Shown here: in pieces, positions 7,030 through 26,963 of the stretch
Layout of the letters: each line of letters opens with the position of its first letter
Position numbering within the stretch: position 1 is the stretch's first letter
DNA from: a virus
Strand: one strand, 5' to 3'
Virus record (IMG/VR): IMGVR_UViG_3300044630_001545
Span: 1 to 38,343 of that record
DNA length: 38,343 nt
Made by a program: the position numbers and the translations under genes
Notes under the pieces: generated by a model
The model's input: only the letters and a program-made list of their open reading frames with translations
The model's database searches: none
What the model was told of the DNA's origin: nothing

Positions 7030-7503
7030 CTAATCACAAGAGTACTGGTAAATGGTCTTAACCCACCAGTACAACATGTCTGTACTTAGGCTTTGTTTTA
7101 ACATGTTGGCTCGGTACGCCACCAGCTGAACGTTACCCGGTACATACCCCAGCGTACTGTCGATTCTGTCGATACTGGCATTAAAGTCCTTAATACCAGA
7201 CCCGTCGTTGTGGTGTGTCAGGACAACCCCTGATATCGCACAACGACCGTCTTGCAACTGCCAGAGTTCGACTAGCTGGTCGACCGTAATCTCGTAACTG
7301 GTAAACCTCCGTTTCTTACTGGTGTCCTTGCTCTTGGATAAAAGGTTCGAGAGATACGGTCTGTAGCCAGTGGACCGTTGTTGACGGTTAGAGGCTAGTT
7401 TGCAGGGGCGACACATGTTCCTCAGTGTCCCGCCTTTATGCTGCTCGAACGACGCTAGTGGCAACTCCTTTTGGCACCGTGAACAGATTTTAGTGTCCGT
7501 CAT
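7030..7503 (-). CDS. HNH endonuclease with zinc ribbon (157 aa)
   Basis: An N-terminal ribbon (C7, C10, C31, C34; CSRC and CRPC) precedes a basic linker. The HNH core follows as GRCAISGVVLT, then SIDRIDSTLGYVPGNVQLV and ANMLKQ, matching the phage HNH pattern of D-R-I-D...G-Y...G-N-V-Q...N. The protein should nick or cut DNA. HNH genes next to terminase often either assist cos/pac cleavage or act as free-standing homing nucleases; the sequence cannot decide. ATG 7503 is chosen over a TTG at 7545 that would add 14 residues; no clear ribosome site is seen for either. It is the first gene of the leftward operon. Confidence 0.88.
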   Translation of the reverse strand: MTDTKICSRCQKELPLASFEQHKGGTLRNMCRPCKLASNRQQRSTGYRPYLSNLLSKSKDTSKKRRFTSYEITVDQLVELWQLQDGRCAISGVVLTHHNDGSGIKDFNASIDRIDSTLGYVPGNVQLVAYRANMLKQSLSTDMLYWWVKTIYQYSCD

Positions 7504-7695
7504 CAGTGGCTCGTGGGCCGTGGTTAGTGGGCGGAGTATACGCAAAACGCGTCTGCAAAAAAATTCTATAAAAATTTTTTTGGATTTTGCTTTTCGAGAG
7601 GGGGGTAGGGGGGTCGGTTTTTTCTGTCTGAATTACTCACACACTATCTCCCCCCCTCGGCTCCAGCACCAACCCCTTTCCCGGAATTTAGCCAT

Positions 7696-7732
7696 TGGAA
7701 CCTTGTTTTCTAACCGTTTCATGGAACCTTGT
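7696..7732 (+). repeat. Two direct copies of TGGAACCTTGT, 26 bp apart
   Basis: Exact 11-base copies at 7696-7706 and 7722-7732. The start-to-start distance is 26 bases, about two and a half helical turns. They lie about 90-125 bases before the first early gene and could be binding sites for a regulator. Confidence 0.5.
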
Positions 7733-7783
7733 CCCCCAGTAACCCCCAACGTTTCACGCTCATCGCTTCGCGATTCGCGGTCA

Positions 7784-7821
7784 GTATCTACTATGTATCT
7801 ACACTAACTAGGAGTATCTAC
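7784..7821 (+). repeat. Three direct copies of GTATCTAC next to first early gene
   Basis: Copies at 7784-7791, 7795-7802 and 7814-7821. The last lies between the AGGAG ribosome site (7810-7814) and the ATG at 7823. A protein bound here, on DNA or RNA, could control the first early gene. Confidence 0.5.
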
Positions 7822-7822
7822 C

Positions 7823-7996
7823 ATGGATCAGTACAACCAAACCTCCAACAACCAGACCCAAGATCAAACCCCAGACGCTGGATACATCGCAGCTGAGAAA
7901 GCTAAAGAAGCATCCAAGACTGTCATCGCATACGCCAAAGAGAAGCCTGACATGGCAGCTCTATTCGTCCTCGGCGTACTCAACCTCTTCACCTAA
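7823..7996 (+). CDS. First early protein, small amphipathic (57 aa)
   Basis: ATG at 7823 with AGGAG eight bases upstream. The product has a polar Asn/Gln-rich start (about 20 residues), an Ala/Lys-rich amphipathic helix (YIAAEKAKEASKTVIAYAKE), and a short hydrophobic end (ALFVLGVLNLF). As the first gene of the early operon it may act on host functions or membranes; this is inference. A similar pattern returns in the 55-residue protein at 9304, so the two may be paralogues. No known family recognised. Confidence 0.68.
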   Translation: MDQYNQTSNNQTQDQTPDAGYIAAEKAKEASKTVIAYAKEKPDMAALFVLGVLNLFT

Positions 7997-8048
7997 TCCA
8001 ACCGGGAGGGACCTCCAACCTCCCATCTCTAACCACAGGTAACTAACC

Positions 8049-8204
8049 ATGAACATCCGCACTTCAACCATTCTCATCATCGGTTCCACCCTCGAGTTCT
8101 GCATAGCATGGCTCATGCCCAGCTACGAAATCCTTATTGCATGCCTGGCTGCATCATTCCTTACAGCCTGGGTCGCCTTCATCAGTGCCTCACATCAGGA
8201 CTAA
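8049..8204 (+). CDS. Small membrane protein (51 aa)
   Basis: ATG at 8049 with a weak AGGTAA upstream. Two hydrophobic segments can be seen: residues about 6-24 (STILIIGSTLEFCIAWLM) and 27-46 (YEILIACLAASFLTAWVAFI), joined by a very short turn, so a helical hairpin in the inner membrane is likely. It ends six bases before the next gene. Function unknown; small two-helix proteins in early operons can act in superinfection exclusion or host takeover, but nothing here proves it. Confidence 0.65.
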   Translation: MNIRTSTILIIGSTLEFCIAWLMPSYEILIACLAASFLTAWVAFISASHQD

Positions 8205-8209
8205 CACCC

Positions 8210-8416
8210 ATGACAACTACCAACGTACAACTGCTCGAGAAATACGCGTACGACAACTACGACCTCGGCGGCCATTGGGTCGCCGAGTGTTGGTCGACCG
8301 AGGACTACGTGCAGGTCCTGTACGACTGCAAGAACGACCTCGAGGAAGCGAAGCTCGAGTTGCGTGCCTACTGGAACCGGGTCAACGAACAAGCGGCCGA
8401 GTGCCGGTGGGAGTGA
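8210..8416 (+). CDS. Hypothetical early protein (68 aa)
   Basis: ATG at 8210 is taken because it follows directly after the previous stop; an in-frame ATG at 8108 would overlap the membrane-protein gene. The product is acidic and Trp/Tyr-rich at the N-terminus (AYDNYDLGGHWVAECW) followed by a charged helix (DCKNDLEEAKLELRAYW). No domain recognised. Its stop codon is the first base set of the repeat cluster at 8414. Confidence 0.62.
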   Translation: MTTTNVQLLEKYAYDNYDLGGHWVAECWSTEDYVQVLYDCKNDLEEAKLELRAYWNRVNEQAAECRWE

Positions 8417-8495
8417 CCACTAACAACGGACCATTGCCATGTGCCCGTTGCCCGTGGTCAGTGGTCCGTTATCTCCTGCAACAGAATAGTGGTCA
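8414..8495. repeat. Cluster of TGACCAC / GTGGTCA motifs and crossing inverted repeats
   Basis: TGACCAC at 8414-8420 is answered by GTGGTCA at 8454-8460 and 8489-8495, with GTGGTCC at 8461-8467. AACGGACCA (8425-8433) pairs with TGGTCCGTT (8462-8470). As RNA these two stems (7 and 9 bp) cross like an H-type pseudoknot; as DNA they are repeated half-sites. Another TGACCAC lies on the far side of the origin-like region at 8901-8907. Confidence 0.5.
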
Positions 8496-8683
8496 GATAT
8501 GCATGTCAATTCTGCACATGTGTGCAGCCATTTGGCCAATGTGTGCACCCTTTATGGCCGTGTGTGCACACAAAATGGTGGTTGTGTGACGCAATTAAAT
8601 CCTACTGATCTACGTAAGTCGTTGATTCCTAACGAAACACCTAAAATGTGTGACGTGTGTGCAGGGATTTTCCAAGTTCAGTT

Positions 8684-8717
8684 CGTATATAGAGACGTGT
8701 ATTTTTTATATACGTCT
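8684..8717. repeat. Central AT-rich hairpin of the origin-like region
   Basis: CGTATATA (8684-8691) is repeated inverted as TATATACG (8707-8714). An alternative fold pairs AGACGTGTAT (8693-8702) with ATATACGTCT (8708-8717) around five T bases, ten pairs with one G-T. It stands near the centre of the iteron dyad and could be extruded or melted first. Confidence 0.5.
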
Positions 8718-8861
8718 TAAATTTGAATTGAATTCTAAAAAAGACTGCACACACTGCACACATATTGATTTATAAAGAAAAATTGCTGCACACACCTTCT
8801 CTCGAAGGGTGCACACATGCCGTTTTTCCTGCACACATTGACCTAAACCCGTCACACAGTC

Positions 8862-8870
8862 TGTGGATAA
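8862..8870 (-). promoter_or_regulatory. Consensus DnaA box
   Basis: Plus strand TGTGGATAA, exactly the complement of the consensus DnaA box TTATCCACA. It is four bases after the last iteron, which strengthens the origin call. I found no second perfect copy nearby. Confidence 0.65.
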
Positions 8871-8947
8871 CTCAGACTTTGACCCCTAACCACGGTCAAC
8901 TGACCACTAATAGTTTCACCTGTGAACCAATATAGGACACCTAACCA

Positions 8948-9274
8948 ATGACACCTGTCATCTATCACGACTCACTGCCAGTGAACAGTTTGGACCTGTT
9001 CTACGCCCACATAACCAAAAACATCACCGATCCAGTGCACGAGCTCTGCGCGGTTTCGCCCCCAATCCCCTTGCGCTCAGGCATGGGCTGGTACGTCGGC
9101 CGTGCCTCCTTCAACTACGATGGCAATGCCAAGCGTTGGTGGTACGAGCCGTACGACCGTATCTCCGACTACTATCAGACCATGGACGAAGCAGCTGATG
9201 CCGCGTCCTGGCACCGTTGGGGTGCACCCCCAGAACTTACGCTCGCCCCTTCGGGGCTCGCGGTCAGTGAGTAA
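8948..9274 (+). CDS. Hypothetical early protein (108 aa)
   Basis: First gene after the origin-like region; ATG 8948 with AGGA about ten bases upstream. The product has many Trp/Tyr residues (SGMGWYVGRASFNYDG, KRWWYEPYDRISDYY) and a helical acidic part (MDEAADAASWHRWG). No membrane helix, signal or known catalytic motif. A TTCAC-CT-GTGAA inverted repeat at about 8914-8926 lies shortly before the start and could be an operator. Confidence 0.65.
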   Translation: MTPVIYHDSLPVNSLDLFYAHITKNITDPVHELCAVSPPIPLRSGMGWYVGRASFNYDGNAKRWWYEPYDRISDYYQTMDEAADAASWHRWGAPPELTLAPSGLAVSE

Positions 9275-9303
9275 TGTGTGTTCGGTAACCAAGGTAACTA
9301 ACC

Positions 9304-9471
9304 ATGCAGCAGCTAGATCTACCCTTACAAACCAACCGTGTACAACGAGCCATGGACAAAGCACGTGGGGCACTTGAATACGTCAAGGCGCACCCGGACG
9401 AAGTCCTTCTGGCCGTCATTACACTAATGCTCCTCGATATCGAGGGCGACATAGACGATCTGGAGAAATAA
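9304..9471 (+). CDS. Small amphipathic early protein (55 aa)
   Basis: ATG 9304, with AAGGT eight bases upstream. The product shows QRAMDKARGALEYVKAHPDE followed by hydrophobic LLAVITLMLLDIEG and an acidic end. The order (Ala/Lys helix, Tyr-x-Lys, Pro-Asp, hydrophobic segment) parallels the 57-residue protein at 7823. No known family recognised. It is followed after three bases by the next gene. Confidence 0.62.
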   Translation: MQQLDLPLQTNRVQRAMDKARGALEYVKAHPDEVLLAVITLMLLDIEGDIDDLEK

Positions 9472-9474
9472 CCA

Positions 9475-9645
9475 ATGTCTAATCCTTACAACACAACCCT
9501 CAATCTGAACGTCGTCAACTGGGACTGGTTAAATGACCACGAACAACGGATGACTGACCACGAATCACTGGACGTGGATATTGAATCCACGCTCGATGAT
9601 GTCGGCGAAGCCAACGACTTGGCTAAGCTGATCCGCGAAAAGTAA
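9475..9645 (+). CDS. Acidic small protein (56 aa)
   Basis: ATG 9475, three bases after the previous stop. The product is strongly acidic (many Asp/Glu) with LNLNVVNWDWLNDHEQRM and VDIESTLDDVGEANDLAKLI. Small acidic phage proteins sometimes mimic DNA, but this one has no recognised homologue and the idea is only a possibility. The coding sequence holds two TGACCAC motifs (9534, 9555) like those around the origin. Confidence 0.58.
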   Translation: MSNPYNTTLNLNVVNWDWLNDHEQRMTDHESLDVDIESTLDDVGEANDLAKLIREK

Positions 9646-9679
9646 ACAACTGTCCACTATCAACCATAGGTAATCAATC

Positions 9680-10333
9680 ATGGCTATCAAAGACCAATCG
9701 TTCATCCCCAACGTTATCGGCTACATGTCCGAGAAGAACACCACCCTTGGTTCCATTGCCAAGTACGTGGAGTCGCAGCAAGCGGACGATCCGCTCGAGC
9801 GTATTGCTCTTGCCTTCTTCCGTTTGCAGCGTGAGCGTCAAGCCGCTGTCCGCGCTGAACTTGATCAGGGAGTCCCGGTTCCGGGCCCTGAGTTCAAGCC
9901 GGAGCGTCTGCTCACCTTCGTTCAGTCCGTCATGAACGGCGTCTGTTGGGCGGCTCGCCGCCTGTACATCGCTAACGACAAGACGGCTGCCGAAGATCTC
10001 GGCAACGGTATCGACTTCTCCCAAGACGTCGGTGACTGGGTCGGTGTCTACGCTTCCAACGAGCGTATCCCCGAGCTGGTCGACAGTGACTATATGGCAC
10101 TGAACCGTTTGCACACTCTGCTCGGCGCCAAGATGGCGTACCTCACCGACATCAGCCCGCTGTATCACTTCGAGCAGCGAGCCCGCGATGAGGACGGCAA
10201 CTGGTACGTCGACAAGACCTGCGCGTCTTTCCAGGAAGCGCTGCCTCTCATGGATGAGATCGTCACGCGGTTGCAGCAGGAGTCCGAGGCCAACGAGGTC
10301 GAGGACTTCATGAAGCAGCTGCGCGCCGCTTAA
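9680..10333 (+). CDS. Hypothetical early protein (217 aa)
   Basis: ATG 9680 with AGGTAA upstream. Mostly helical, charged and soluble; segments include DDPLERIALAFFRLQRERQA, NGVCWAARRLYIANDK and the acidic C-terminus EANEVEDFMKQLRAA. No known domain or motif recognised. Codon use differs from its small neighbours in being richer in GC and in preferred codons (CGT, CTC, AAG), which suggests strong expression. It is followed by a structured leader before the next gene. Confidence 0.78.
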   Translation: MAIKDQSFIPNVIGYMSEKNTTLGSIAKYVESQQADDPLERIALAFFRLQRERQAAVRAELDQGVPVPGPEFKPERLLTFVQSVMNGVCWAARRLYIANDKTAAEDLGNGIDFSQDVGDWVGVYASNERIPELVDSDYMALNRLHTLLGAKMAYLTDISPLYHFEQRARDEDGNWYVDKTCASFQEALPLMDEIVTRLQQESEANEVEDFMKQLRAA

Positions 10334-10446
10334 GGTCCCAGAGAGAAGGTTGGCCGTCATCCTTACCCAAAACGGCACCATGCTCTCCCCCTTCGGCCAT
10401 AAGGTCAGAGGGGGAGAAACTAGGGCGAGAAGGGCGGTAGCGTGCC
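10334..10446 (+). other. Structured intercistronic segment
   Basis: Two hairpins: GCCGT/ACGGC near 10352-10375 and a 9-bp stem TCTCCCCCT (10384-10392) with AGGGGGAGA (10409-10417) around 16 bases. No U-tract follows, so it is not a standard terminator. It may protect the mRNA of the abundant upstream gene or control the next one, whose start lacks a clear ribosome site. Confidence 0.45.
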
Positions 10447-10767
10447 ATGCAGTATTTCAGACCAGACTTTGACAACGAATACGATTCACTAAAAAGAGAA
10501 CACGGTGAGTACCAGGTGTTATGGGCTAGCGTACTACTGCAAGCTGTTCGTGATTTCGATAGCCGGTATCTCGGCGAACGCGAACAGGCTCTTAACTATG
10601 TGTACTCACGACAGAATCACGTCGGGTCCTTCAGCTGGGTATGCGACGCATTAGGTCTAGAAACAGACCGTATACGCCAGATGTGCGTAACCCGCGACGG
10701 ACGTAAACGACTAATCGGTAACAACGTAGGAAACAGGAAAACCAATCATGACGACCATCAAAACTGA
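10447..10767 (+). CDS. Small phage protein with WVCDALGLE motif (106 aa)
   Basis: ATG 10447; no good Shine-Dalgarno. The pattern is a helix (YQVLWASVLLQAVRDFDSRYL), a YVYSRQNHVGSFSWVCDALG segment, then LETDRIRQMC. I recall this layout (a helix, then F-x-W-V-C-x-x-L-G-L-D-x-x-x-x-R) from many short phage and prophage proteins of unknown function. The LGLETDRIRQ part looks like a helix-turn-helix. It overlaps the next gene by 20 bases. Confidence 0.72.
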   Translation: MQYFRPDFDNEYDSLKREHGEYQVLWASVLLQAVRDFDSRYLGEREQALNYVYSRQNHVGSFSWVCDALGLETDRIRQMCVTRDGRKRLIGNNVGNRKTNHDDHQN

Positions 10768-11014
10768 CATCCGCGAACATATCCGTGACGCCATCTTCGA
10801 AGTAACCAAAGACGGTAATCTCGAGATGGAAAACCTTCAGACTCTTATTAAAGAACTAGCCGGTGGCATCGGCTTTGTGTTCGGTGCCATGCAGATCGCT
10901 GCAGGTAAATCGATCCCGCCTGATCTTATCAACGAGAGCATCGACGAGATTGCCACTTACATTAAGGAAGTGGTCACAGCCGTCGGTAAGTTTGAGCCGC
11001 CAAAGGCTAACTAA
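10748..11014 (+). CDS. Hypothetical helical protein (88 aa)
   Basis: ATG 10748 with AGGA about nine bases upstream, inside the end of the previous gene. The product is almost wholly helical; a mildly hydrophobic Gly-rich stretch (ELAGGIGFVFGAMQIAAG) could touch a membrane or a partner. No family recognised. It is the last gene before a strong intrinsic terminator. Confidence 0.68.
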   Translation: MTTIKTDIREHIRDAIFEVTKDGNLEMENLQTLIKELAGGIGFVFGAMQIAAGKSIPPDLINESIDEIATYIKEVVTAVGKFEPPKAN

Positions 11015-11129
11015 TTACGTGCTAACATATTCGAACCGGAAACTTAGGGCCTGGCCAGCAGTAATGTATGGCCTCCACCGGACGCTTGGAGATGGCTAAC
11101 CCTCTATCCAGCCCTAGTTTCCACCTATT

Positions 11130-11168
11130 AAAAGCCCGATGGAGCTGCCAGCTCTGTTGGGCTTTTTT
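11130..11168 (+). terminator. Rho-independent terminator
   Basis: AAAAGCCC (11130-11137) pairs with GGGCTTTT (11159-11166), enclosing a second small stem GAGCT/AGCTC, followed by a run of six T (11163-11168). It ends the first early transcript after the 88-residue gene, 115 bases downstream of its stop. Confidence 0.85.
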
Positions 11169-11183
11169 ATTTGCTAGCCCAAT

Positions 11184-11384
11184 ATGACTACTAAATCTAC
11201 AGCTTTACAGATAGCAGACTCACTTGAGAAAAACGGCGAAGGCTGCACTTGCTGCGCTTACGCTAGCTTCGAATGCTGCTGCGAAGCAGTGTGGGGAAGC
11301 GACTACACCCGAGAAGCCGCCGCCGAACTGCGCCGCCTTCATGCCGAGAACGAACAACTGCGGAATGCAGTAATAGCCGAATAG
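11184..11384 (+). CDS. Cys-rich small protein (66 aa)
   Basis: Starts 16 bases after the terminator with no ribosome site, so its transcript may begin at or very near the ATG. Six cysteines are packed into residues 21-33 (CTCCAYASFECCC), a likely metal site. The rest (ALQIADSLEKN, then REAAAELRRLHAENEQLRN) matches a common phage helix pattern with AAxELRRLHxENxxLR. Function unknown. The motif is unusual because most relatives I recall lack the Cys cluster. Confidence 0.68.
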   Translation: MTTKSTALQIADSLEKNGEGCTCCAYASFECCCEAVWGSDYTREAAAELRRLHAENEQLRNAVIAE

Positions 11385-11395
11385 GAGCAACCGCG

Positions 11396-11617
11396 ATGAC
11401 GCGCGAAGACATCATCCGCATGGCGCAAGAGTGCCAACTGATCGGTATGCGTCCGCATCTTGACGGTATTTATGAGGAAGCACTTCAACGCTTCGCCGCT
11501 CTCGTTGCCGCCGCCGAGCGTGAGGCGTGTGCTTTGTTGTGCGAGGAGACTCGCTTTCCAGACAGTTACACGGCTATCCGTTGCGCCGCCGCGATTCGGG
11601 CGAGGAATGAAGAATGA
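11396..11617 (+). CDS. Small phage protein of the AAEREACA type (73 aa)
   Basis: ATG 11396, AGGAG eight bases upstream. The layout MTREDIIRMAQEC, then LQRFAALVAAAEREACALLCEE and CAAAIRARNEE is a pattern I recall very often from phages and prophages of Pseudomonadota. No function known. The stop overlaps the next ATG (ATGA). Confidence 0.82.
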   Translation: MTREDIIRMAQECQLIGMRPHLDGIYEEALQRFAALVAAAEREACALLCEETRFPDSYTAIRCAAAIRARNEE

Positions 11618-11796
11618 AGCCTGACACATACCGCATTCTTGAAATGGCCGTACGCGACGGCATTGCTATCGGCTATCGTCGCGCACACAAACACAACGAC
11701 AACCCTGACCAAGAACAACTAATCGATGCCATCGAACAAGCTGTTATGGGACAGATCTGTCAATGGTTCAAATTCGAAGACATACAAGACATATGA
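11614..11796 (+). CDS. Conserved small phage protein (60 aa)
   Basis: ATG 11614 overlaps the previous stop by four bases. The sequence YRILEMAVRDGIAIGYRRAHKH, then AIEQAVMGQICQWFKFED, matches a recurring phage pattern with A-H-K-H and I-x-x-x-I-x-x-x-V-M-x-x-I-x-x-W-F. Function is unknown. The next gene starts within its stop codon (ATATGA). Confidence 0.8.
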   Translation: MKPDTYRILEMAVRDGIAIGYRRAHKHNDNPDQEQLIDAIEQAVMGQICQWFKFEDIQDI

Positions 11797-12029
11797 AAAC
11801 ACTTAACAGAAAATCATTCCAAGTAATGGTCGTCTTTAAATTTAACGGAGTCGACGGAGTCAACACCGAAGACGCCGACAAGATTGTCCAAGAACTGACC
11901 GATGCTACCCAAGACTGGCAGATCGAACACGGTGCCGATGCAGTGTGGGTCGAAGACGCCATCCTGTACGATCGAGATACCGGTGACCAACTGGAAGCTT
12001 GGGACGAAGCATGGGGCAAAGAGACCTAA
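11793..12029 (+). CDS. Hypothetical acidic protein (78 aa)
   Basis: The ATG at 11793 overlaps the previous stop as ATGA; an earlier in-frame ATG at 11763 lies inside the upstream gene and is less likely. The product starts with a beta-like stretch (FQVMVVFKFNGVDGV), then is acidic with a helix (EDADKIVQELTDATQDW). No family recognised. Confidence 0.68.
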   Translation: MKTLNRKSFQVMVVFKFNGVDGVNTEDADKIVQELTDATQDWQIEHGADAVWVEDAILYDRDTGDQLEAWDEAWGKET

Positions 12030-12051
12030 ATAACAAAGGAGGCTTTCACCG

Positions 12052-12336
12052 ATGAGTACTTGGAACCACCGCTTTATAGTAACTCGCGACCGATTCCTCG
12101 ATGAGGATGGCGAGTTCATCCAGCTAGCCGAAGTCTTTTACGATGAAGACGGCAAGCTATCAGCGTATGCCAGACCACACCTTGTATTCGATGACATGGA
12201 AGGCGTAAACAATTTTATTTTACGCATCATGCGAGCAGCTCAGTTGCCGCTGCTTCACGAAGACGACTTCCCTCGCGACGCTAACTTAACCCAAGAACGG
12301 GACTACTCAGGACTGTTCGAGGACGACGAACAATGA
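12052..12336 (+). CDS. WNHR-type small phage protein (94 aa)
   Basis: ATG 12052 with a near-perfect AAAGGAGG nine bases upstream, the strongest ribosome site of the region. The pattern WNHRFIVTRD, then AEVFYDEDGK, a helix LRIMRAAQLPLLHEDDF, fits a widespread family of short phage proteins (WNxRxV...EVYYDEDGK...), whose role is unknown. Strong translation is expected. The stop overlaps the next ATG. Confidence 0.82.
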   Translation: MSTWNHRFIVTRDRFLDEDGEFIQLAEVFYDEDGKLSAYARPHLVFDDMEGVNNFILRIMRAAQLPLLHEDDFPRDANLTQERDYSGLFEDDEQ

Positions 12337-12449
12337 TCCGTGCAATCTATGCATTTATCAAACGTATTAACTCTATTAAAACTTATGACTGGCGTTGGGT
12401 GCCACCACCCAACTGGCGGTCCTGCCGAGGCGGCCGTGATTACTGGTGA
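12333..12449 (+). CDS. Possible 38-residue basic protein (overlapping frame)
   Basis: The ATG at 12333 overlaps the previous stop (ATGA), so coupling is likely. The product starts MIRAIYAFIKRINS and continues YDWRWVPPPNWRSC, GGRDYW. Its frame covers the first 100 bases of the next gene, read in another frame. Either both are made, or one is a false frame, or a programmed or mutational +1 shift joins the two. Confidence 0.45.
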   Translation: MIRAIYAFIKRINSIKTYDWRWVPPPNWRSCRGGRDYW

Positions 12450-12798
12450 ACATCCATACCCTACTTACATATTCACATTCCTACAACCCAATCAACGGAT
12501 CGTAGATCGCGAATACGTATACGACACCCTGTTAGTAGCTGACTACGACGGCGTGTCTTACACAAATCCAGAGTACGTAGGGTTTGAGGTATACAGAGAT
12601 ATACCCGGTACTTCTAGAAAAGAATACCGAAAACTGTACGACAATATTGCTTACGCAGTACAGCACGTTTGGTTTTACAACAAACTTTCTGCTTTAGATT
12701 TACACAAACAAGCTCAACCACAACTACCTGACAACTTAAAAAACATGACCCTGCACTGGCAGGGGTTAACCCAAATAAATCAAGCTATACCTTGGTAG
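12349..12798 (+). CDS. Hypothetical protein (about 149 aa, start uncertain)
   Basis: Long open frame with candidate starts at 12340 (GTG), 12349 (ATG) and 12385 (ATG), none with a clear ribosome site. The central part is Tyr-rich (YVYDTLLVADYDGVSYTNPE, YVGFEVYRDIPGTSRKEYRK) and ends with LHWQGLTQINQAIPW. No family recognised. The first 30 residues overlap the frame at 12333 and look less protein-like than the rest, so the true start or a frameshift is open. Confidence 0.6.
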   Translation: MHLSNVLTLLKLMTGVGCHHPTGGPAEAAVITGEHPYPTYIFTFLQPNQRIVDREYVYDTLLVADYDGVSYTNPEYVGFEVYRDIPGTSRKEYRKLYDNIAYAVQHVWFYNKLSALDLHKQAQPQLPDNLKNMTLHWQGLTQINQAIPW

Positions 12799-14717: not shown

Positions 14718-15404
14718 ATGGCTTCTGTAAGAATGACCAATGACCTTCGCAGTAATATTCAAAACCGTGCTATTCAAGCTTTCGACACAGCGCGCCCTCG
14801 CCCGGCACCTTCTACGTGGCTTACTGATCGTATGCGAGATGCGATCATTAACTCAGAACCGTACAAGGCCCTCCAGCGATTGTGGGAGACCCGAGACCAA
14901 CACACATTTGTGTCGTTCGGAGGATACCCAAAACCGTTGGAGCGAGAAGCAGTAACTTATGTGTCTGTTTCTTCGGTCAACGGATTTAACCAATCTAACC
15001 AAGTTGCATCGTCGACCCTCGTGTTTGAGTTTGCACCTCAGATAAACGTCTACCGTGCGGCTCGATGGGGTTACCCGGAAATTCGATTCGAAGAACTACC
15101 GGCTAACTTCATACAAGATCTTGCGACGCCGTGTTATGAGCTCTGCCAGGACATCAAAACACACGACGCAAACAAGAACGAATACCACCGCAAGATCAGC
15201 AGCTTGCTTGATCAATGCGGTACGGTAAAGCAGCTGCTGCTTGCCTGGCCTGCGGCGGAATCATTTATTCCGTCTGAGCACATGAACCGCATGTACACCA
15301 AGGTCAACCGCAAACAGCGTGCACAGGAAATCAAGGAAGAAGTTAACTTCGACGATAGTTTCGTAAACGAAATCGTACTAACCGCTAAACTCGTAGGAGG
15401 CTAA
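14718..15404 (+). CDS. Nmad5-like protein in MoxR-VWA cassette (228 aa)
   Basis: ATG 14718 with AAGGAG upstream. The N-terminal part has MTNDLRSNIQNRAIQAF, and the C-terminal third has a charged helix, then KISSLLDQCGTVKQLLLAWP followed by AAESFIPSEH. The sequence order of an L-T-N-x-L-R-x-x-I start and a T-V-K-x-L-L-x-x-W-P end recalls the nucleotide-modification-associated domain 5 (Nmad5) of phages; this match is from memory and not certain. It stands between the ATPase and the VWA gene, so it may be their substrate or adaptor. Confidence 0.6.
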   Translation: MASVRMTNDLRSNIQNRAIQAFDTARPRPAPSTWLTDRMRDAIINSEPYKALQRLWETRDQHTFVSFGGYPKPLEREAVTYVSVSSVNGFNQSNQVASSTLVFEFAPQINVYRAARWGYPEIRFEELPANFIQDLATPCYELCQDIKTHDANKNEYHRKISSLLDQCGTVKQLLLAWPAAESFIPSEHMNRMYTKVNRKQRAQEIKEEVNFDDSFVNEIVLTAKLVGG

Positions 15405-16574: not shown

Positions 16575-18392
16575 ATGCTTTTAGTTACGCTCGACTTTGA
16601 GACTTACTACGACGTTAAGTTAAGTCTCACGAAAATGACCACGATGGAATACGTCAAGGACCCCAAGTTCAAAGTCTGGGGTGCTGGCATAAAAGTCGGG
16701 AACGAACCAACAGAATGGTACGGAGCAGATGAAGTCGAAGACGCCCTGCGTCAGTTTGACTGGAGCGACGTTATGTTGCTTTGTCACAACACTCTATTCG
16801 ACGGTTACATCCTGGCTCGGCATTACGGCATCACGCCTGCCTACTACCTAGATACTGCAGCCATGGCACGCGGAGCGTTCCCTGGCCAGTCAGCATCGCT
16901 GAAAGAAACAAGCATCCGCTTGTTCCCTGACGACAAGTCAATGCGTAAAGGCGAAGACTTGGTCAAAGCAAAAGGTATGTACGATTTGCCTCCTGACATC
17001 GAAGAAGCAATCGCTAAGTACTGTATTCAAGACGTTGATCTCACATACGCCGTATACAACAAACTTGCTGCCACTTACCCACAATCAGAATTAGATTTAA
17101 TCAACCTTACTACCAGGATGTTCTGCCAACCGGTCTTGAAGATTGACCGTGAACGACTGGCCACGTACCACCAACAGGAATTCACGTACGCTGAAGAACT
17201 GATCAAGGCTTCCGGTCTCGATCGTGAAGTTCTGTCAAGTAATCAGAAGTTCGTTGCACACATCGAGTCACTTGGCATTGTTGCCCCAGTGAAACGAAGT
17301 CCAACTACCAAGCAGATGATCCCGGCGCTTGGCAAAAACGACTCCGGTTGGAAGCAACTTGTTGCGAAATACCCACAACACAAGCACATCTGGGACGCCA
17401 GACAAGCCGTGAAATCACGCATCAGTGAAACACGCGCTAAACGCTTTCTTGACGTAGCGCATCATGACAACACAATCAGCGTCCCGCTCAAGTACTACGC
17501 CGCACATACCGGCCGCTTTGGCGGCACCGAAAAGATTAACCTGCAGAACTTACCGCGTGGTAGCGAGCTACGAAAAACGCTCATTGCTCCGGCAGGCCAG
17601 CTGCTTTATGTAGCTGACTTGTCCAACATTGAAGCTCGCATGCTTGCATGGCTCGCTGGTCAAGAGGATCTTCTTGAGCAGTTTCGTCGAGGTGAGGATA
17701 TATACAGTAACTTTGCGTCGAAGATTTACAACAGACCAATCAACAAGAAAGACCACCCAACAGAACGCTTCGTAGGCAAGACCGCTATTCTCGGTCTTGG
17801 CTACGGAATGGGCCACAACAAGTTCAAGCTGACTCTGGAATCAGGAGCAGCGGGCCCTGCAATGCAAGTCACAGAAGCTGAAGCACTTAACGTTGTCAGT
17901 ACTTATCGTTCGACCTACAACCAAATACCGCTACTGTGGGCCAGGCTTGAGAACCTACTCAAACAGTCGTTGCACCGGGACAACTACAACGTACCGTACC
18001 GCAACGGCGTACTGACGGTCCAGGACCGATCGTTAGTCCTGCCTAACGGCATGGCTCTTAGATACGAAAATCTGCAGATGCTATCCCAGGGGCTGACCTA
18101 CCAGACCCGAGGCGTCATACAAGAAATGACGTACGGCGGACGCATTACAGAAAACGTTATTCAGGCTTTGTCTAGAATCGTAATTACGGACAGTTTATTG
18201 AGGCTAGACAAGCAGTTACGCAATGGCAAGGTAGCCCTGACAGTTCACGACGAGATTGTAATTGTTGCATCTGATCAAAATCCCGATGCTACAATGAAAG
18301 CGATCATTGAGGATTTGTGCACCCCGCCACCTTGGGCACCAGACTTACCGCTTTCAGCTGAAGGCGGCTATGACAGGATGTATAGCAAGTAA
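16575..18392 (+). CDS. Family A DNA polymerase with 3'-5' exonuclease (605 aa)
   Basis: Exonuclease motifs: LDFET (D7, E9), HNTLFD (D76) and Y149-x3-D153. Polymerase motif A is VADLSNIEAR (D348), motif B is R398-x3-K402-x3-L406-x3-Y410, and motif C is HDE (558-560). All expected catalytic residues are present, and there is no 5' nuclease domain. Residue 406 is the equivalent of E. coli Pol I Phe762 and is Leu here. The enzyme should replicate the phage genome. TAGGAG is close before the ATG. The stop is directly followed by the csrA ATG, so they share a transcript. Confidence 0.96.
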   Translation: MLLVTLDFETYYDVKLSLTKMTTMEYVKDPKFKVWGAGIKVGNEPTEWYGADEVEDALRQFDWSDVMLLCHNTLFDGYILARHYGITPAYYLDTAAMARGAFPGQSASLKETSIRLFPDDKSMRKGEDLVKAKGMYDLPPDIEEAIAKYCIQDVDLTYAVYNKLAATYPQSELDLINLTTRMFCQPVLKIDRERLATYHQQEFTYAEELIKASGLDREVLSSNQKFVAHIESLGIVAPVKRSPTTKQMIPALGKNDSGWKQLVAKYPQHKHIWDARQAVKSRISETRAKRFLDVAHHDNTISVPLKYYAAHTGRFGGTEKINLQNLPRGSELRKTLIAPAGQLLYVADLSNIEARMLAWLAGQEDLLEQFRRGEDIYSNFASKIYNRPINKKDHPTERFVGKTAILGLGYGMGHNKFKLTLESGAAGPAMQVTEAEALNVVSTYRSTYNQIPLLWARLENLLKQSLHRDNYNVPYRNGVLTVQDRSLVLPNGMALRYENLQMLSQGLTYQTRGVIQEMTYGGRITENVIQALSRIVITDSLLRLDKQLRNGKVALTVHDEIVIVASDQNPDATMKAIIEDLCTPPPWAPDLPLSAEGGYDRMYSK

Positions 18393-18602
18393 ATGTCCCG
18401 GCTTGTTCTAACAAGACGCTTGAACGAATCAGTCGTGGTACATCGCGAGGGTGACGTCATCGTCACTGTCAAGGTCTGTCGCATAGACAGAAATCAAGTT
18501 CGCATTGCATTTGTCGCAGACAAAACAATAAGCATAGACCGCCAAGAAACTCTGGGCGATGCAATGAACTCTTGTTTATCACCAGATGATAAACAAGAGT
18601 AA
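18393..18602 (+). CDS. csrA: CsrA-family translational regulator (69 aa)
   Basis: The start MSRLVLTRRLNESVVV and the middle RIDRNQVRIAFVADKTISID match the CsrA fold; host CsrA has M-L-I-L-T-R-R and G-N-Q-V-R-I-G-V. The RNA-binding residues LTRR (6-9) and Arg50 (equivalent of Arg44) are kept, so the protein should bind GGA motifs in mRNA as a dimer. It begins directly after the polymerase stop (TAAATG). A phage CsrA could retune host metabolism or time phage translation. The last 35 bases form a strong hairpin. Confidence 0.92.
   Translation: MSRLVLTRRLNESVVVHREGDVIVTVKVCRIDRNQVRIAFVADKTISIDRQETLGDAMNSCLSPDDKQE
18568..18600 (+). repeat. Perfect 13-bp hairpin at the csrA 3' end
   Basis: ACTCTTGTTTATC (18568-18580) pairs fully with GATAAACAAGAGT (18588-18600) around seven bases. 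The stop codon follows at once, then CTTTTAAGGAG, the primase ribosome site. No long U-run; it may act as a CsrA-linked translational switch or an mRNA processing site. Confidence 0.65.
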
Positions 18603-18620: not shown

Positions 18621-21164
18621 ATGAAGGTTACGTTTCTTGAGGGGCCAGCTGGCACCTCGCTTAGCAAGCACTACTTCGCCAACGGCGAAACCCGACCATA
18701 CCCACATGTAAAAGACGTAACTTCATACGAACATTCAATACAAGTTTCACAGCTCGGACTCGAGCACCTTGAAAACCTAATCCGTTCACACGGATCTAAA
18801 GGCGACTGCATGCTCAAAGGAGCACTGCGTCGTCCGCTTGTTAATGAAAGCCGAGCACAAAAGAGCGATCGACTGGCCCTCAACGGCCTGCTCGTTCTCG
18901 ACTTTGATGCAATTACATTGCCGCGGCAAATCGTACGTTCGAAGAAACTGAACTCTAGCGACGTACAACTGATCGCTGAACAGATCATCGCTGATCTGCC
19001 AACTGAACTGCACGACGTAAGTTACATCGCACAAGCATCAGCTAGCCTTGGACTTAAGGGCAACCGTATTTCTATGCATATCTTTATGCTGCTCACGGTC
19101 CCGATGCCGCCTAAGTCTATTAAACTTTGGCTGCAAAACCTTAATTACGCCATCCCGGTATTTAAGGATCAGTTAGAACTAAGTGCTAACGGTCAGTCTC
19201 TTAAGTATCCAGTAGACGTGTCAGTTGCTGACAACAGCAAACTAATCTTCATTGCACCTCCGACGTTTGAAGACCCAACTCAGAATCCGTTTACTTCAGA
19301 CGCCGATCGCATTGTCCGAGTAGTCAGAGCAAACGCATCGTTTGACCTGGCTGCTACGATGCTGTCTTTAAATCCTGAGGCGGTATTTCAAACCGGCCAG
19401 CAAATTAAAGACGATCTTCGCGATGTCAAAGGCATTCGTAAAAAGAACGCCAAGTTCCAAACGATGACCATTGATTACCAGGCCCATGAGGTCCTGCTTA
19501 ATCCTGACAAAATGTCCATCACCATTGCTGACACTTCGGCAATGCCATGGATCCGCTGTAACGTAAACGGCGGAGACAGTGGGGCGTACTACTTCAATAT
19601 CGAACGTCCGACTTACATGTACAACTTTAAGGACGAACCGATCTTCGAGATCGAAAAAGCCGACAAAGAGTTTTACAAAAGTATCTTCGAAATCTTCCAG
19701 ACGCATCTTGAAAAGTCTGGTAAAGCTACATACCCAGTTGTGCTCCGTGATTACTATACCGACATCTACTACAACGGCGTCTTTGATCCGAACCTTAACC
19801 AGTTCACAGAAGACTATCCGCTGGTGCCAACAAGCAAGACCAGCATCGAAAGCTTCATGCTTAGCCATGGTCGACCAGAGCCTGACTTTGTCCGTGACGC
19901 TCGGGTAGTCTTCGACCCGACTTGCGAAAGTCCGGCCATTGATTTCGACAACGTACCGTATTTCGTCAACATGTACCGCAAGACTAAGTACATGCTGCAT
20001 CCAGAGATCCCAGCCAATGACTTGTTGTTTGGCCAGGCAAAACTGTTATCTAACCAGTGCCCGTTGATCTACACCCTTATTCACCACGTACTAGGCGGTG
20101 GTGATCAGGAGTTCGAACGGTTCATCAACTGGCTGGCATACATCTTTCAGACCAGAAAGAAAGCTAAAACAGCATGGGTATTGGGCGGCGTACCAGGTAC
20201 AGGTAAAGGTCTGTTCTACAGCCGTATCCTTCGCCCGTTGTTCGGACAAGAGCACGTTCCAATGAAGTCCCTTCAGAGCATTGAAGAGCACTTCAATCTG
20301 TACATGCGTAACGCAATCTTTCTGATCGTCGATGAGTTCCACATGGCTTCGTCGTCAATTGGTGCAATGAAGATTGCTGACAAGCTTAAGAATCAGATCA
20401 CAGAAGACACCATTACAATCCGCGCTATGCGGACTAACCAGACTGAAATCCAGAGTTACACAAACTTCATCTTCCTGACTAACCGTAACGATGCTATCAA
20501 GATCGAAAACGGTGACCGGCGGTACAACATCCCGCCCCGCCAGGAACAAAAACTAGAAGATGCGCATCCTGATTTGCTCAGGAACCTAGACCAGTTAGAC
20601 AACGAGCTATACGCGTTCGCAGGCATCCTTCATACCTTTAAGGTCAACGAACGGATGGTACATACCTGCATCGACAACAACGCCAAAAGCGAAATGCGGC
20701 ACGTCTCGATGTCGATTCTCGAGGAGTTTGCCGAGGCTCTCAAGCGTGGAGACTTGTTGTTTTTTAGCGACATCCTTGATATCAACACAGCTAACGTCCA
20801 GAACATGAACGAAGTAGCCACAGCCCAGCGCATAGTTAAACACTGGATTGCCATGGCTAAAGAGAAGTACACGATCATCCCAATGGAGCATCTGCGTACG
20901 GTATTCCATGTTCAGACCGAGGCTAACCCACGTCTGTCCCAGCGCGAGTTCTCAAAGCAAATGAGCCGCAACGGAATCACATCCGCTCGCAAGCGACCGG
21001 CCAATGCACCTCGCGACGTTAATGTAGTTACAGGAACTGTCGTCAATTGGGAGATCGACGAGCTGGAACGCCAGCGTCTTATCAACACGTACTTTGACGG
21101 TACCGATCAAAGACTGTTACATACCGAAGACAATAGCTATACTAACAAGGTCAATTACAACTGA
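18621..21164 (+). CDS. AEP primase - SF3 helicase fusion (847 aa)
   Basis: The N-terminal part has the archaeo-eukaryotic primase pattern: LDFD at 93-96 (catalytic acidic pair) and a conserved RISMHIF (His153). The C-terminal part is a superfamily 3 / D5-like helicase: Walker A GGVPGTGKG near 520-528, Walker B FLIVDEF near 565-571, motif C ending in LTNRND near 620. One protein would therefore lay primers and unwind the fork, and DUF5906-type proteins do this in other phages. The ribosome site AAGGAG is strong. The gene ends ten bases before the nuclease start. Confidence 0.92.
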   Translation: MKVTFLEGPAGTSLSKHYFANGETRPYPHVKDVTSYEHSIQVSQLGLEHLENLIRSHGSKGDCMLKGALRRPLVNESRAQKSDRLALNGLLVLDFDAITLPRQIVRSKKLNSSDVQLIAEQIIADLPTELHDVSYIAQASASLGLKGNRISMHIFMLLTVPMPPKSIKLWLQNLNYAIPVFKDQLELSANGQSLKYPVDVSVADNSKLIFIAPPTFEDPTQNPFTSDADRIVRVVRANASFDLAATMLSLNPEAVFQTGQQIKDDLRDVKGIRKKNAKFQTMTIDYQAHEVLLNPDKMSITIADTSAMPWIRCNVNGGDSGAYYFNIERPTYMYNFKDEPIFEIEKADKEFYKSIFEIFQTHLEKSGKATYPVVLRDYYTDIYYNGVFDPNLNQFTEDYPLVPTSKTSIESFMLSHGRPEPDFVRDARVVFDPTCESPAIDFDNVPYFVNMYRKTKYMLHPEIPANDLLFGQAKLLSNQCPLIYTLIHHVLGGGDQEFERFINWLAYIFQTRKKAKTAWVLGGVPGTGKGLFYSRILRPLFGQEHVPMKSLQSIEEHFNLYMRNAIFLIVDEFHMASSSIGAMKIADKLKNQITEDTITIRAMRTNQTEIQSYTNFIFLTNRNDAIKIENGDRRYNIPPRQEQKLEDAHPDLLRNLDQLDNELYAFAGILHTFKVNERMVHTCIDNNAKSEMRHVSMSILEEFAEALKRGDLLFFSDILDINTANVQNMNEVATAQRIVKHWIAMAKEKYTIIPMEHLRTVFHVQTEANPRLSQREFSKQMSRNGITSARKRPANAPRDVNVVTGTVVNWEIDELERQRLINTYFDGTDQRLLHTEDNSYTNKVNYN

Positions 21165-26199: not shown

Positions 26200-26476
26200 A
26201 CGACTCACACACTACACAAAACCCACCAGGTACAACCTCACTCTTTCGTTCGAGCAGTACAAATTCCTGCTACAACGCAAAAGAGAAGCCATCACCAACC
26301 GAGAGCGTATCAAGTACAAAGACTTGGTAGAGCTTTGGGGCATTAAACAGTACTACATGGCCACGGCTATGAACCGTGGTATCAAGCAGTATGACTACAG
26401 ACTTTGGAAGGAAAAGGTAAACAATGAGCAAGAAAGACGCCGTCAACCCGTCTCATTATCGACGCGGGGATGTTGA
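26192..26476 (+). CDS. Possible DNA-binding protein (94 aa)
   Basis: Very basic. The segment KYKDLVELWGIKQYYMATAMN followed by GIKQYDYRLW looks like a helix-turn-helix with a second helix that enters the groove. The end (about 53 bases) overlaps the DUF3310 gene. A regulatory role near the end of the early operon is a guess. Confidence 0.6.
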   Translation: MRKRLTHYTKPTRYNLTLSFEQYKFLLQRKREAITNRERIKYKDLVELWGIKQYYMATAMNRGIKQYDYRLWKEKVNNEQERRRQPVSLSTRGC

Positions 26477-26651
26477 ATGCATTGATGCACTACGAGCCTG
26501 CCTAACGGAAGAAGAGTTCCGTGGGTACTGCAAAGGCAGCGCCATGGCTTACCTGTGGCGGGATGGAGAAAAAGACGACCCAAAGCAAGAGGCTGGTAAA
26601 GCCAACTGGTATGTACAGTGGCTTCGCGGACTTGATCCTAGGGAAAGCTAA
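26424..26651 (+). CDS. DUF3310 protein (75 aa)
   Basis: Contains AVNPSHYRRGDVECIDAL and GYCKGSAMAYLWRDG, then ANWYVQWL, the pattern of the DUF3310 / SaV family found in very many phages. It has been described as a nucleotide kinase-like protein; that name rests on weak evidence. AGGTAA lies just before the ATG. It is the last rightward gene; its stop codon is directly next to the stop of the converging metallopeptidase gene. Confidence 0.88.
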   Translation: MSKKDAVNPSHYRRGDVECIDALRACLTEEEFRGYCKGSAMAYLWRDGEKDDPKQEAGKANWYVQWLRGLDPRES

Positions 26652-26963
26652 CTACTCCATCGACACCAGCATGTGGTGCAGAAGATGAGAGACCCTGTCC
26701 ACCAGGGCCTCATCTTCTGATAACTCGTAGTAACCAGCCACGTCCAGAATAGCGTGCACCGCTTCATGCAGGAAAACCTGCTGGCGGTTTGTACCTTTTA
26801 AAGAGCCGTGTAGTTCAATCCGGTACTTGTCCGGAATCCACATCCCAACGCAGTCTTTTCCGTTCTTCCATTTGCTGCGGGGGATATTAACTACTTCTAT
26901 TCTGTGCCCGGCCAAGCTAAACGCTTTTGGAATACCGTCATCAATACGCTTGGCAACTGGCAT
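26652..26963 (-). CDS. HExxH metallopeptidase-like protein (103 aa)
   Basis: HEAVH at 66-70 with a following acidic segment (LSEDEALVD, E83 or E85) gives the zincin set of an ImmA/IrrE- or SprT-like peptidase. Small proteins of this type are common in phages, and roles include cleaving repressors; the target here is unknown. AAGGGGG precedes the ATG. The gene lies at the end of the leftward fibre operon and converges with DUF3310 with no gap. Confidence 0.82.
   Translation of the reverse strand: MPVAKRIDDGIPKAFSLAGHRIEVVNIPRSKWKNGKDCVGMWIPDKYRIELHGSLKGTNRQQVFLHEAVHAILDVAGYYELSEDEALVDRVSHLLHHMLVSME

Follow-up and report, generated by a model that had tools for sequence, protein, structure and literature searches.

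A probable replication origin with inverted iteron arms in a clade of podovirus-like phages and a candidate protein for its recognition

The window analysed here, the 38,343-base IMG/VR virus record IMGVR_UViG_3300044630_001545, represents one strand of an incomplete genome. Judged from its sequence, the non-coding interval 8417-8947 of this window is very probably the site at which a tailed phage starts its replication. Short repeats (iterons) are arranged there in two inverted arms around an AT-rich core; an initial annotation had proposed a replication origin from this arrangement, and both the layout and its conservation among related phages support that proposal. We consider it rather likely that the iterons of this origin are read by the large primase-helicase of the phage and that the AT-rich core is melted with the assistance of the integration host factor (IHF). 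The elements of the proposed origin are the following:

8417-8947, no strand: non-coding interval holding the proposed origin, between the open reading frames (ORFs) 8211-8416 and 8948-9274, both rightward
8519-8590, plus strand: left outer arm with four iterons, starting at 8519, 8540, 8561 (TGTGTGCA) and 8583 (TGTGTGAC)
8615-8627, minus strand: exact IHF consensus (YAANNNNTTGATW: TAAGTCGTTGATT), within the gap that separates the left outer arm from the left inner pair
8647-8663, plus strand: left inner iteron pair, starting at 8647 and 8656, 9 bp apart
8664-8745, no strand: AT-rich core, proposed melting site, 72% A+T versus 48% for the window
8746-8762, minus strand: right inner iteron pair, starting at 8746 and 8755, 9 bp apart
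8787-8858, minus strand: right outer arm with four iterons, starting at 8787, 8810, 8830 (TGTGTGCA) and 8851 (TGTGTGAC)
8862-8870, minus strand: exact DnaA box TGTGGATAA, just right of the last iteron

Twelve copies of TGTGTGCA/TGTGTGAC are thus present in the gap, six on each strand, with start-to-start spacings of 21, 21, 22, 64, 9, 90 (across the core), 9, 32, 23, 20 and 21 bp. All the copies reported in the initial annotation were recovered at their positions, and the measured starts bear out its 20-23-base spacing of the outer copies (two helical turns) and its 4+2+core+2+4 plan with equal 9-base inner pairs. An extra, thirteenth copy on the minus strand at 8565 overlaps the plus-strand copy at 8561, since the latter belongs to the perfect palindrome TGTGTGCACACA (8561-8572) within the left outer arm. 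Including this palindromic overlap, 13 copies fall within 345 bp, versus 0-2 in the densest 345 bp of 200 dinucleotide-preserving shuffles; elsewhere in the 38 kb, the 8-mer occurs a single time, at 17255 within the polymerase gene.

Relatives of the phage were retrieved via its MoxR-like ATPase, an alignment of its Nmad5-family protein, and its primase-helicase; the fetched stretches of related contigs that were compared with the window carry L-numbers (e.g., L031). In 69 of the fetched stretches, a motif-blind search for inverted clusters detected this plan upstream of MoxR; these stretches include many overlapping pieces of the same contigs and reduce to a non-redundant set of about 29 origins. 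The finder used for these dyads scored at least 7 in one of 18 control stretches, and single weak matches were hence left unused. The clade with the conserved layout consists of metagenomic podovirus-like contigs, and its members place the dyad at a constant site: downstream of the point at which packaging and early genes diverge, and upstream of the genes for MoxR, the polymerase and the primase-helicase. Two to four copies make up the outer arm, and one of them is often reversed. Beyond a gap lie two or three inner copies spaced by 8-10 bp, then the core (about 76-113 bp), and on its far side an inner pair and, after a second gap, an outer arm, both inverted. According to the initial annotation, close relatives that had lost the spacing pattern would speak against an origin; the pattern persists while the motif changes.

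These changes of the motif affect nearly all copies of a dyad in concert. The iteron measures 9 bp and has the general form TGTGTNNCA, into which most lineage motifs fit: TGTGTGCAG in the clade of the window and in L023, TGTGTGTCA/G in L034 and L019, TGTGTGACG in L063, GTGTGACA in L169, CTGTGACA in L033, GTGAGACA in L024 and L043, TGTGCCA in L032, L051, L058 and L061, TGTGTGCCA in L176, L179 and L246, TGTGTACCA in L025, L066 and L201, TGTGTTCCA in L029 and L031, and TGTGTAGCA in L045 and L065. Between L031 and L030/L066, every copy (12/12) is altered at the same base, from TGTGTTCC to TGTGTACC, and the spacers are 88% identical. Between L058 and L200, 13 of the 14 copies have changed from TGTGCCA to TGTACCA; spacers in such close switch pairs are 85-88% alike. 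L169 and L179 differ by a change from GTGTGACA to GTGTGCCA in seven of nine copies, with one unswitched relic and spacers of 71% identity. The interval 1850-2150 of L179 has the appearance of an origin in mid-switch: its leftmost copy is still TGTGTGACA, and nearly all others are TGTGTGCCA. Since separate sites spread over 300 bp have changed in concert, one trans-acting protein would appear to read all copies, and the specificity of this protein has, as we infer from the motifs, shifted many times.

A further conserved component is the exact IHF consensus at 8615-8627, which the initial annotation had overlooked. Among the gaps between outer arm and inner pair of the 29 origins, which are related loci and hence not 29 independent events, this consensus is exact in 15 and present with at most one mismatch in 28; the corresponding means for shuffled gaps were 0.2 and 4.0, with maxima of 2 and 10, and the counts for the cores of these origins were 0 and 3. 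The predicted site thus occupies a fixed place in the origin, as in IHF-assisted origins, and its orientation and side (left or right gap) differ among lineages. Its natural reading is a DNA bend between outer arm and inner pair. Two other components of the earlier description fared less well. The AT-rich core is present as described, but its hairpin is modest (z = -2.0) and is not kept when the cores of other lineages are folded. Likewise, the DnaA box at 8862-8870 is exact, but it has no part in the conserved plan: in the closest sub-clades (L002-L015, L056, L067), a single copy adjoins the last iteron on its right side, and none is present in L016, L047, L019, L023 and L025. Instead of the cluster of DnaA boxes that marks a DnaA-dependent oriC-type origin, the interval contains this single exact box.

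The nearest isolated phages, as judged by their primase-helicases (28-30% identity), are the Pseudomonas phages KPP25, phiR18 and CRPAP1904 and the Aeromonas phage phiA008. At the matching genome position, 26219-26894, KPP25 possesses a 677-bp non-coding gap with copies of TGTTACGA/TCGTAACA and TCGTGACA; the copies of an inner pair are spaced by 8 bp, and those of the inverted pair beyond the AT-rich core by 9 bp. The AT-rich gap of phiA008 contains an exact match to the IHF consensus (AATCAACAACTTA), but no short-iteron dyad was detected in it, and no comparable dyad was found in the Nmad5-bearing phages ICP2, PG11 and Jeremy (in the case of PG11 and Jeremy, in the parts read). KPP25 also carries a 9-bp tandem array of about 16 copies of GCCAGCCCA within a coding region (L145, 11090-11350).

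Any protein that reads the iterons must accompany all origins of the clade. MoxR and Nmad5 are present in all relatives because the relatives were selected by one or the other. The polymerase, a CsrA-like protein and the primase-helicase occur in nearly all relatives with a long enough contig, and the primase-helicase in particular is present in KPP25 and in the dyad-bearing relatives whose contig reaches far enough. Three genes of the window are pertinent in this context:

14718-15404, plus strand: Nmad5-family protein with a hypervariable middle, considered and not supported as iteron reader
16575-18392, plus strand: family A DNA polymerase (Pfam DNA_pol_A, 7e-29), in the same replication module as the primase-helicase
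18621-21164, plus strand: primase-helicase with an AEP-like N-terminal part, a D5/SF3-type helicase and a C-terminal winged-helix-like domain at about residues 729-808, the proposed iteron reader

The primase-helicase belongs to the Pfam DUF5906/VapE-like proteins and matches NrS-1 in a phmmer search (1e-24). Its structural model (mean predicted local distance difference test score 80) was compared with known structures by Foldseek and VIA-align, and matched NrS-1 (Z 25), the SaPI5 primase-helicase (Z 14.6) and D5 (Z 13.5); the alignment with NrS-1 and the SaPI5 protein covers residues 370-809. In the model, residues 729-808 follow the order helix-strand-helix-helix-strand-strand, which is that of a winged helix. 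The related helicases Rep of the Staphylococcus aureus pathogenicity islands (SaPIs) and Cch2 of the SCCmec elements bind origin iterons via their C-terminal domain and are thought to act as two hexamers (PMC7581432). Its presence alongside the origins, the match of its model and the precedent of SaPI Rep and Cch2 make the primase-helicase the best candidate, and it is probably this protein that, together with host IHF, reads the iterons. The initial annotation was right in that no Rep or O family protein is found among the scanned window proteins, but its suggestion of an unknown small early protein as the initiator is not borne out: of the replication proteins that accompany the origins, the large primase-helicase alone belongs to a kind for which recognition of iterons has a precedent. 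Relatives of this protein with 44-50% identity (L301, L302, L303) are encoded on contigs of 19-61 kb that were binned into unrelated bacterial metagenome-assembled genomes; these contigs are probably phage, so that no host is indicated. The primase-helicase frame of the L058 contig (L294) is interrupted by a single in-frame TAA, which may reflect either an error of assembly or a broken gene.

In the mechanism that we propose, the primase-helicase would bind the iterons via its C-terminal winged-helix-like domain, with one assembly on each arm, and host IHF would bend the 30-70 bp that separate an outer arm from its inner pair, thereby joining outer and inner copies. The strain might then be released in the AT-rich core, which would melt, and two helicase rings could load in opposite directions, so that the family A polymerase of the phage would synthesise DNA both ways from the core. 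The order of these events is our suggestion.

Several observations weigh against the primase-helicase as the reader, or against the interval as the origin. When used alone, the C-terminal domain yields no matches in PDB sequences or in Pfam. It is the most variable segment of the protein and is identical in the window and in L005, which share the same iteron class; formal covariation between iteron class and this domain, however, gave p = 0.12, and in sliding windows other genes reach equally low values, so that the null distribution of this test is poorly calibrated. Scans of column-wise mutual information and residual identity gave good scores for windows 291-340 and 781-810 of the primase-helicase, and likewise for windows of the polymerase, DUF2201, HNH and CsrA proteins, and these scans therefore do not discriminate between the proteins. 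The contigs of L179, L066 and L030 break off ahead of the C-terminal part of the primase-helicase gene. Residue 804, located in the wing, is T or S for TGTGTGCAG types and mostly R for types ending in CA, with L034 (N), L039 (T) and L265 (T) as exceptions. Some 10 kb separate the proposed origin from the primase-helicase gene, which is not the arrangement of phage-inducible chromosomal islands (PICIs). Finally, GC skew, a check suggested in the initial annotation, was computed over the window and has no turning point at the proposed origin; the sign of the AT skew does flip at about 8 kb, where, as a confounding factor, gene direction flips as well.

Second in rank is the possibility that the origin is real, but that another phage protein, either the Nmad5-family protein or a small early protein, reads the iterons and then recruits the primase-helicase. 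The Nmad5 gene sits between the MoxR and DUF2201 genes; its ends and neighbours are conserved, and its middle is hypervariable. As a specificity factor, this protein is attractive when the pair L179/L169 is inspected: these two stretches share 92-100% DNA identity almost throughout, except in the origin, in a single small accessory ORF and in the central part of Nmad5, where all 29 amino acid changes fall in residues 15-145 and the rate of nonsynonymous substitution (dN) is 0.144 (residues 31-150), versus 0.001-0.004 in MoxR, DUF2201 and the polymerase. Moreover, Nmad5 is present in every compared dyad-bearing relative and in KPP25, and phiA008, which possesses the primase-helicase, has neither an Nmad5 match nor a short-iteron dyad. 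Across pairs, the correspondence is not upheld. Nmad5 also diverges where the origin does not (L045/L065: origin 96% and Nmad5 middle 70% identical; L005/L003: 95% and 75%), and we therefore rank it behind the primase-helicase. Its divergence does not track iteron class in a formal test (p = 0.995), its predicted fold has no trustworthy match to known folds (Foldseek, VIA), and ICP2 carries Nmad5 without such a dyad. The response of the Tmn defence system to Nmad5 in Dhillonvirus (PMC11846954) gives another reason for the variability of this protein. Among the small early proteins, that encoded at 9680-10333 is missing from lineages that retain the dyad and was rejected as the reader; L112, which had seemed to carry this gene and the iterons alone, is a truncated relative. 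Taken together, we hold recognition by a protein other than the primase-helicase to be unlikely.

The alternatives to an origin fare worse. A transcriptional control region, in which a repressor or activator on the iterons would govern early genes, perhaps with IHF, would suit the position of the interval among early genes near their divergence from the leftward genes, and operator arrays with IHF exist. However, the two flanking genes run in the same direction, which leaves a symmetric operator without obvious use, no sigma-70-like promoter was detected within 7500-9300, and an AT-rich core of fixed size (about 76-113 bp) between inward-facing copies is the trait of an origin; we regard transcriptional control as improbable, even though it could be a second role. 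A packaging site of the cos or pac kind, at which the small terminase subunit would act on the repeats together with IHF, is less probable still. The gene for this subunit is only about 1.7 kb away, and cosB of phage lambda pairs repeated sites with an IHF site, but the likely small terminase genes of L179 and L169 are 99% identical despite the iteron switch, and we know of no packaging site with a symmetric layout around an AT-rich core. A centromere-like partition site can practically be dismissed: some partition sites are arrays of short repeats, but no ParA/ParM-like gene was recognised among the window ORFs that were read or scanned, and the genes of the window are those expected of a lytic podovirus-like phage.

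With regard to this gene content, the window encodes a P22-like portal, a large terminase, the family A polymerase, the D5/SF3-type primase-helicase, a PD-(D/E)XK nuclease and an SNF2-type helicase. Leftward packaging genes start at 7545 and rightward early genes at 7823. A CsrA-family gene (18393-18602) stands between the polymerase and primase-helicase genes, as it does in every relative of sufficient length. Phage genomes searched with the interval 8417-8947 itself gave no DNA matches. Further repeats flank the dyad: GACCACTAACAACGGACC / GGTCAGTGGTCCGTTA on the left (8417-8470) and GGTCAACTGACCACTAATAG on the right (8886-8912).

A second, apparently unrelated phage group, Bacteroides-like as judged from structural genes, also bears TGTGTGCA iterons (L072, L078, L080, L091, L093, L095, L096, L110, L113, L116, L117, L119, L125, L126, L132, L139, L141). 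They follow another plan, approximately three minus-strand copies, 53 bp, seven plus-strand copies, 64 bp and three plus-strand copies, and in L091 they adjoin a gene for a DnaG-type primase-helicase (9326-12613, minus strand). Homologues of the primase-helicase of the window were sought in this group, and the search yielded only chance matches to a structural gene; the same octamer has apparently been put to use convergently.

As far as we could find, the combination of this origin plan with an IHF site and serial, in-concert switching of iterons has not been described. Phages and satellites (PLE) of Vibrio cholerae point to a possible driving force: there, an origin-directed nuclease (Odn) imitates the satellite initiator and selects for changed iterons (PMC8263062). 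We tentatively suggest that a widespread clade of lytic phages possesses an origin organisation hitherto claimed to be unique to PICIs, and that iterons and initiator specificity repeatedly switch together, a process that might be driven by satellites, by superinfection with relatives or by nucleases directed at the origin. If so, these phage origins would amount to 'incompatibility types' that arose in nature, PICIs might have obtained their replicons from them, and the PICI-type plan would extend to lytic phages. Most origins of lytic phages are unmapped; here, sequence alone yields a precise candidate for a large clade and for the isolate KPP25. The switches in close pairs offer a natural series in which a long-standing question can be addressed, namely how the specificity of an initiator can change jointly with that of a dozen dispersed sites.

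Among known systems, the origins of herpesviruses (oriS) and of papillomaviruses and SV40 likewise have initiator sites inverted around an AT-rich core, but hosts and initiator domains are unrelated and the analogy is one of layout alone. Iteron plasmids and the lambda origin share iterons, an AT-rich region and sometimes IHF sites and DnaA boxes; their iterons form one direct array that lies to one side of the AT-rich region, and their initiator, of the RepA or O type, is unrelated, whereas inverted arms stand on both sides here. Phage P4 combines primase and initiating helicase in one protein (alpha) and starts replication at short repeats (PMC7145576), but repeat and layout differ, and our searches reported no match to alpha. 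Among solved structures, that of the NrS-1 primase-polymerase comes nearest to the helicase and C-terminal portions of the phage protein. To our knowledge, no iteron origin has been described for NrS-1.

The closest likeness is to the origins of the PICIs of Staphylococcus (including the SaPIs) and of Gram-negative bacteria, in which two iteron sets flank an AT-rich region (PMC6092414). In both cases, the replicon encodes a D5/SF3-type helicase, often fused to a primase, to which the sequence and fold match of 18621-21164 assigns the phage protein as a predicted self-loading initiator helicase, and in both the iterons differ between elements. PICI origins, however, lie just 3' of the rep (pri-rep) gene, whereas the origin of the window is at 8.5-8.9 kb and the gene starts at 18.6 kb, an order that the relatives keep. 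Further differences are the strictly inverted 4+2/2+4 arrangement of the 9-bp iterons, the conserved IHF site and the genetic setting: PICIs are satellite islands with an integrase and phage-dependent induction, and the window encodes the terminase, portal and polymerase of a tailed phage. Because of the distance from the helicase gene and the lytic phage setting, we do not file the origins of this clade as PICI origins; the best reading of the comparison is nevertheless that they would work like those of PICIs and SaPIs.
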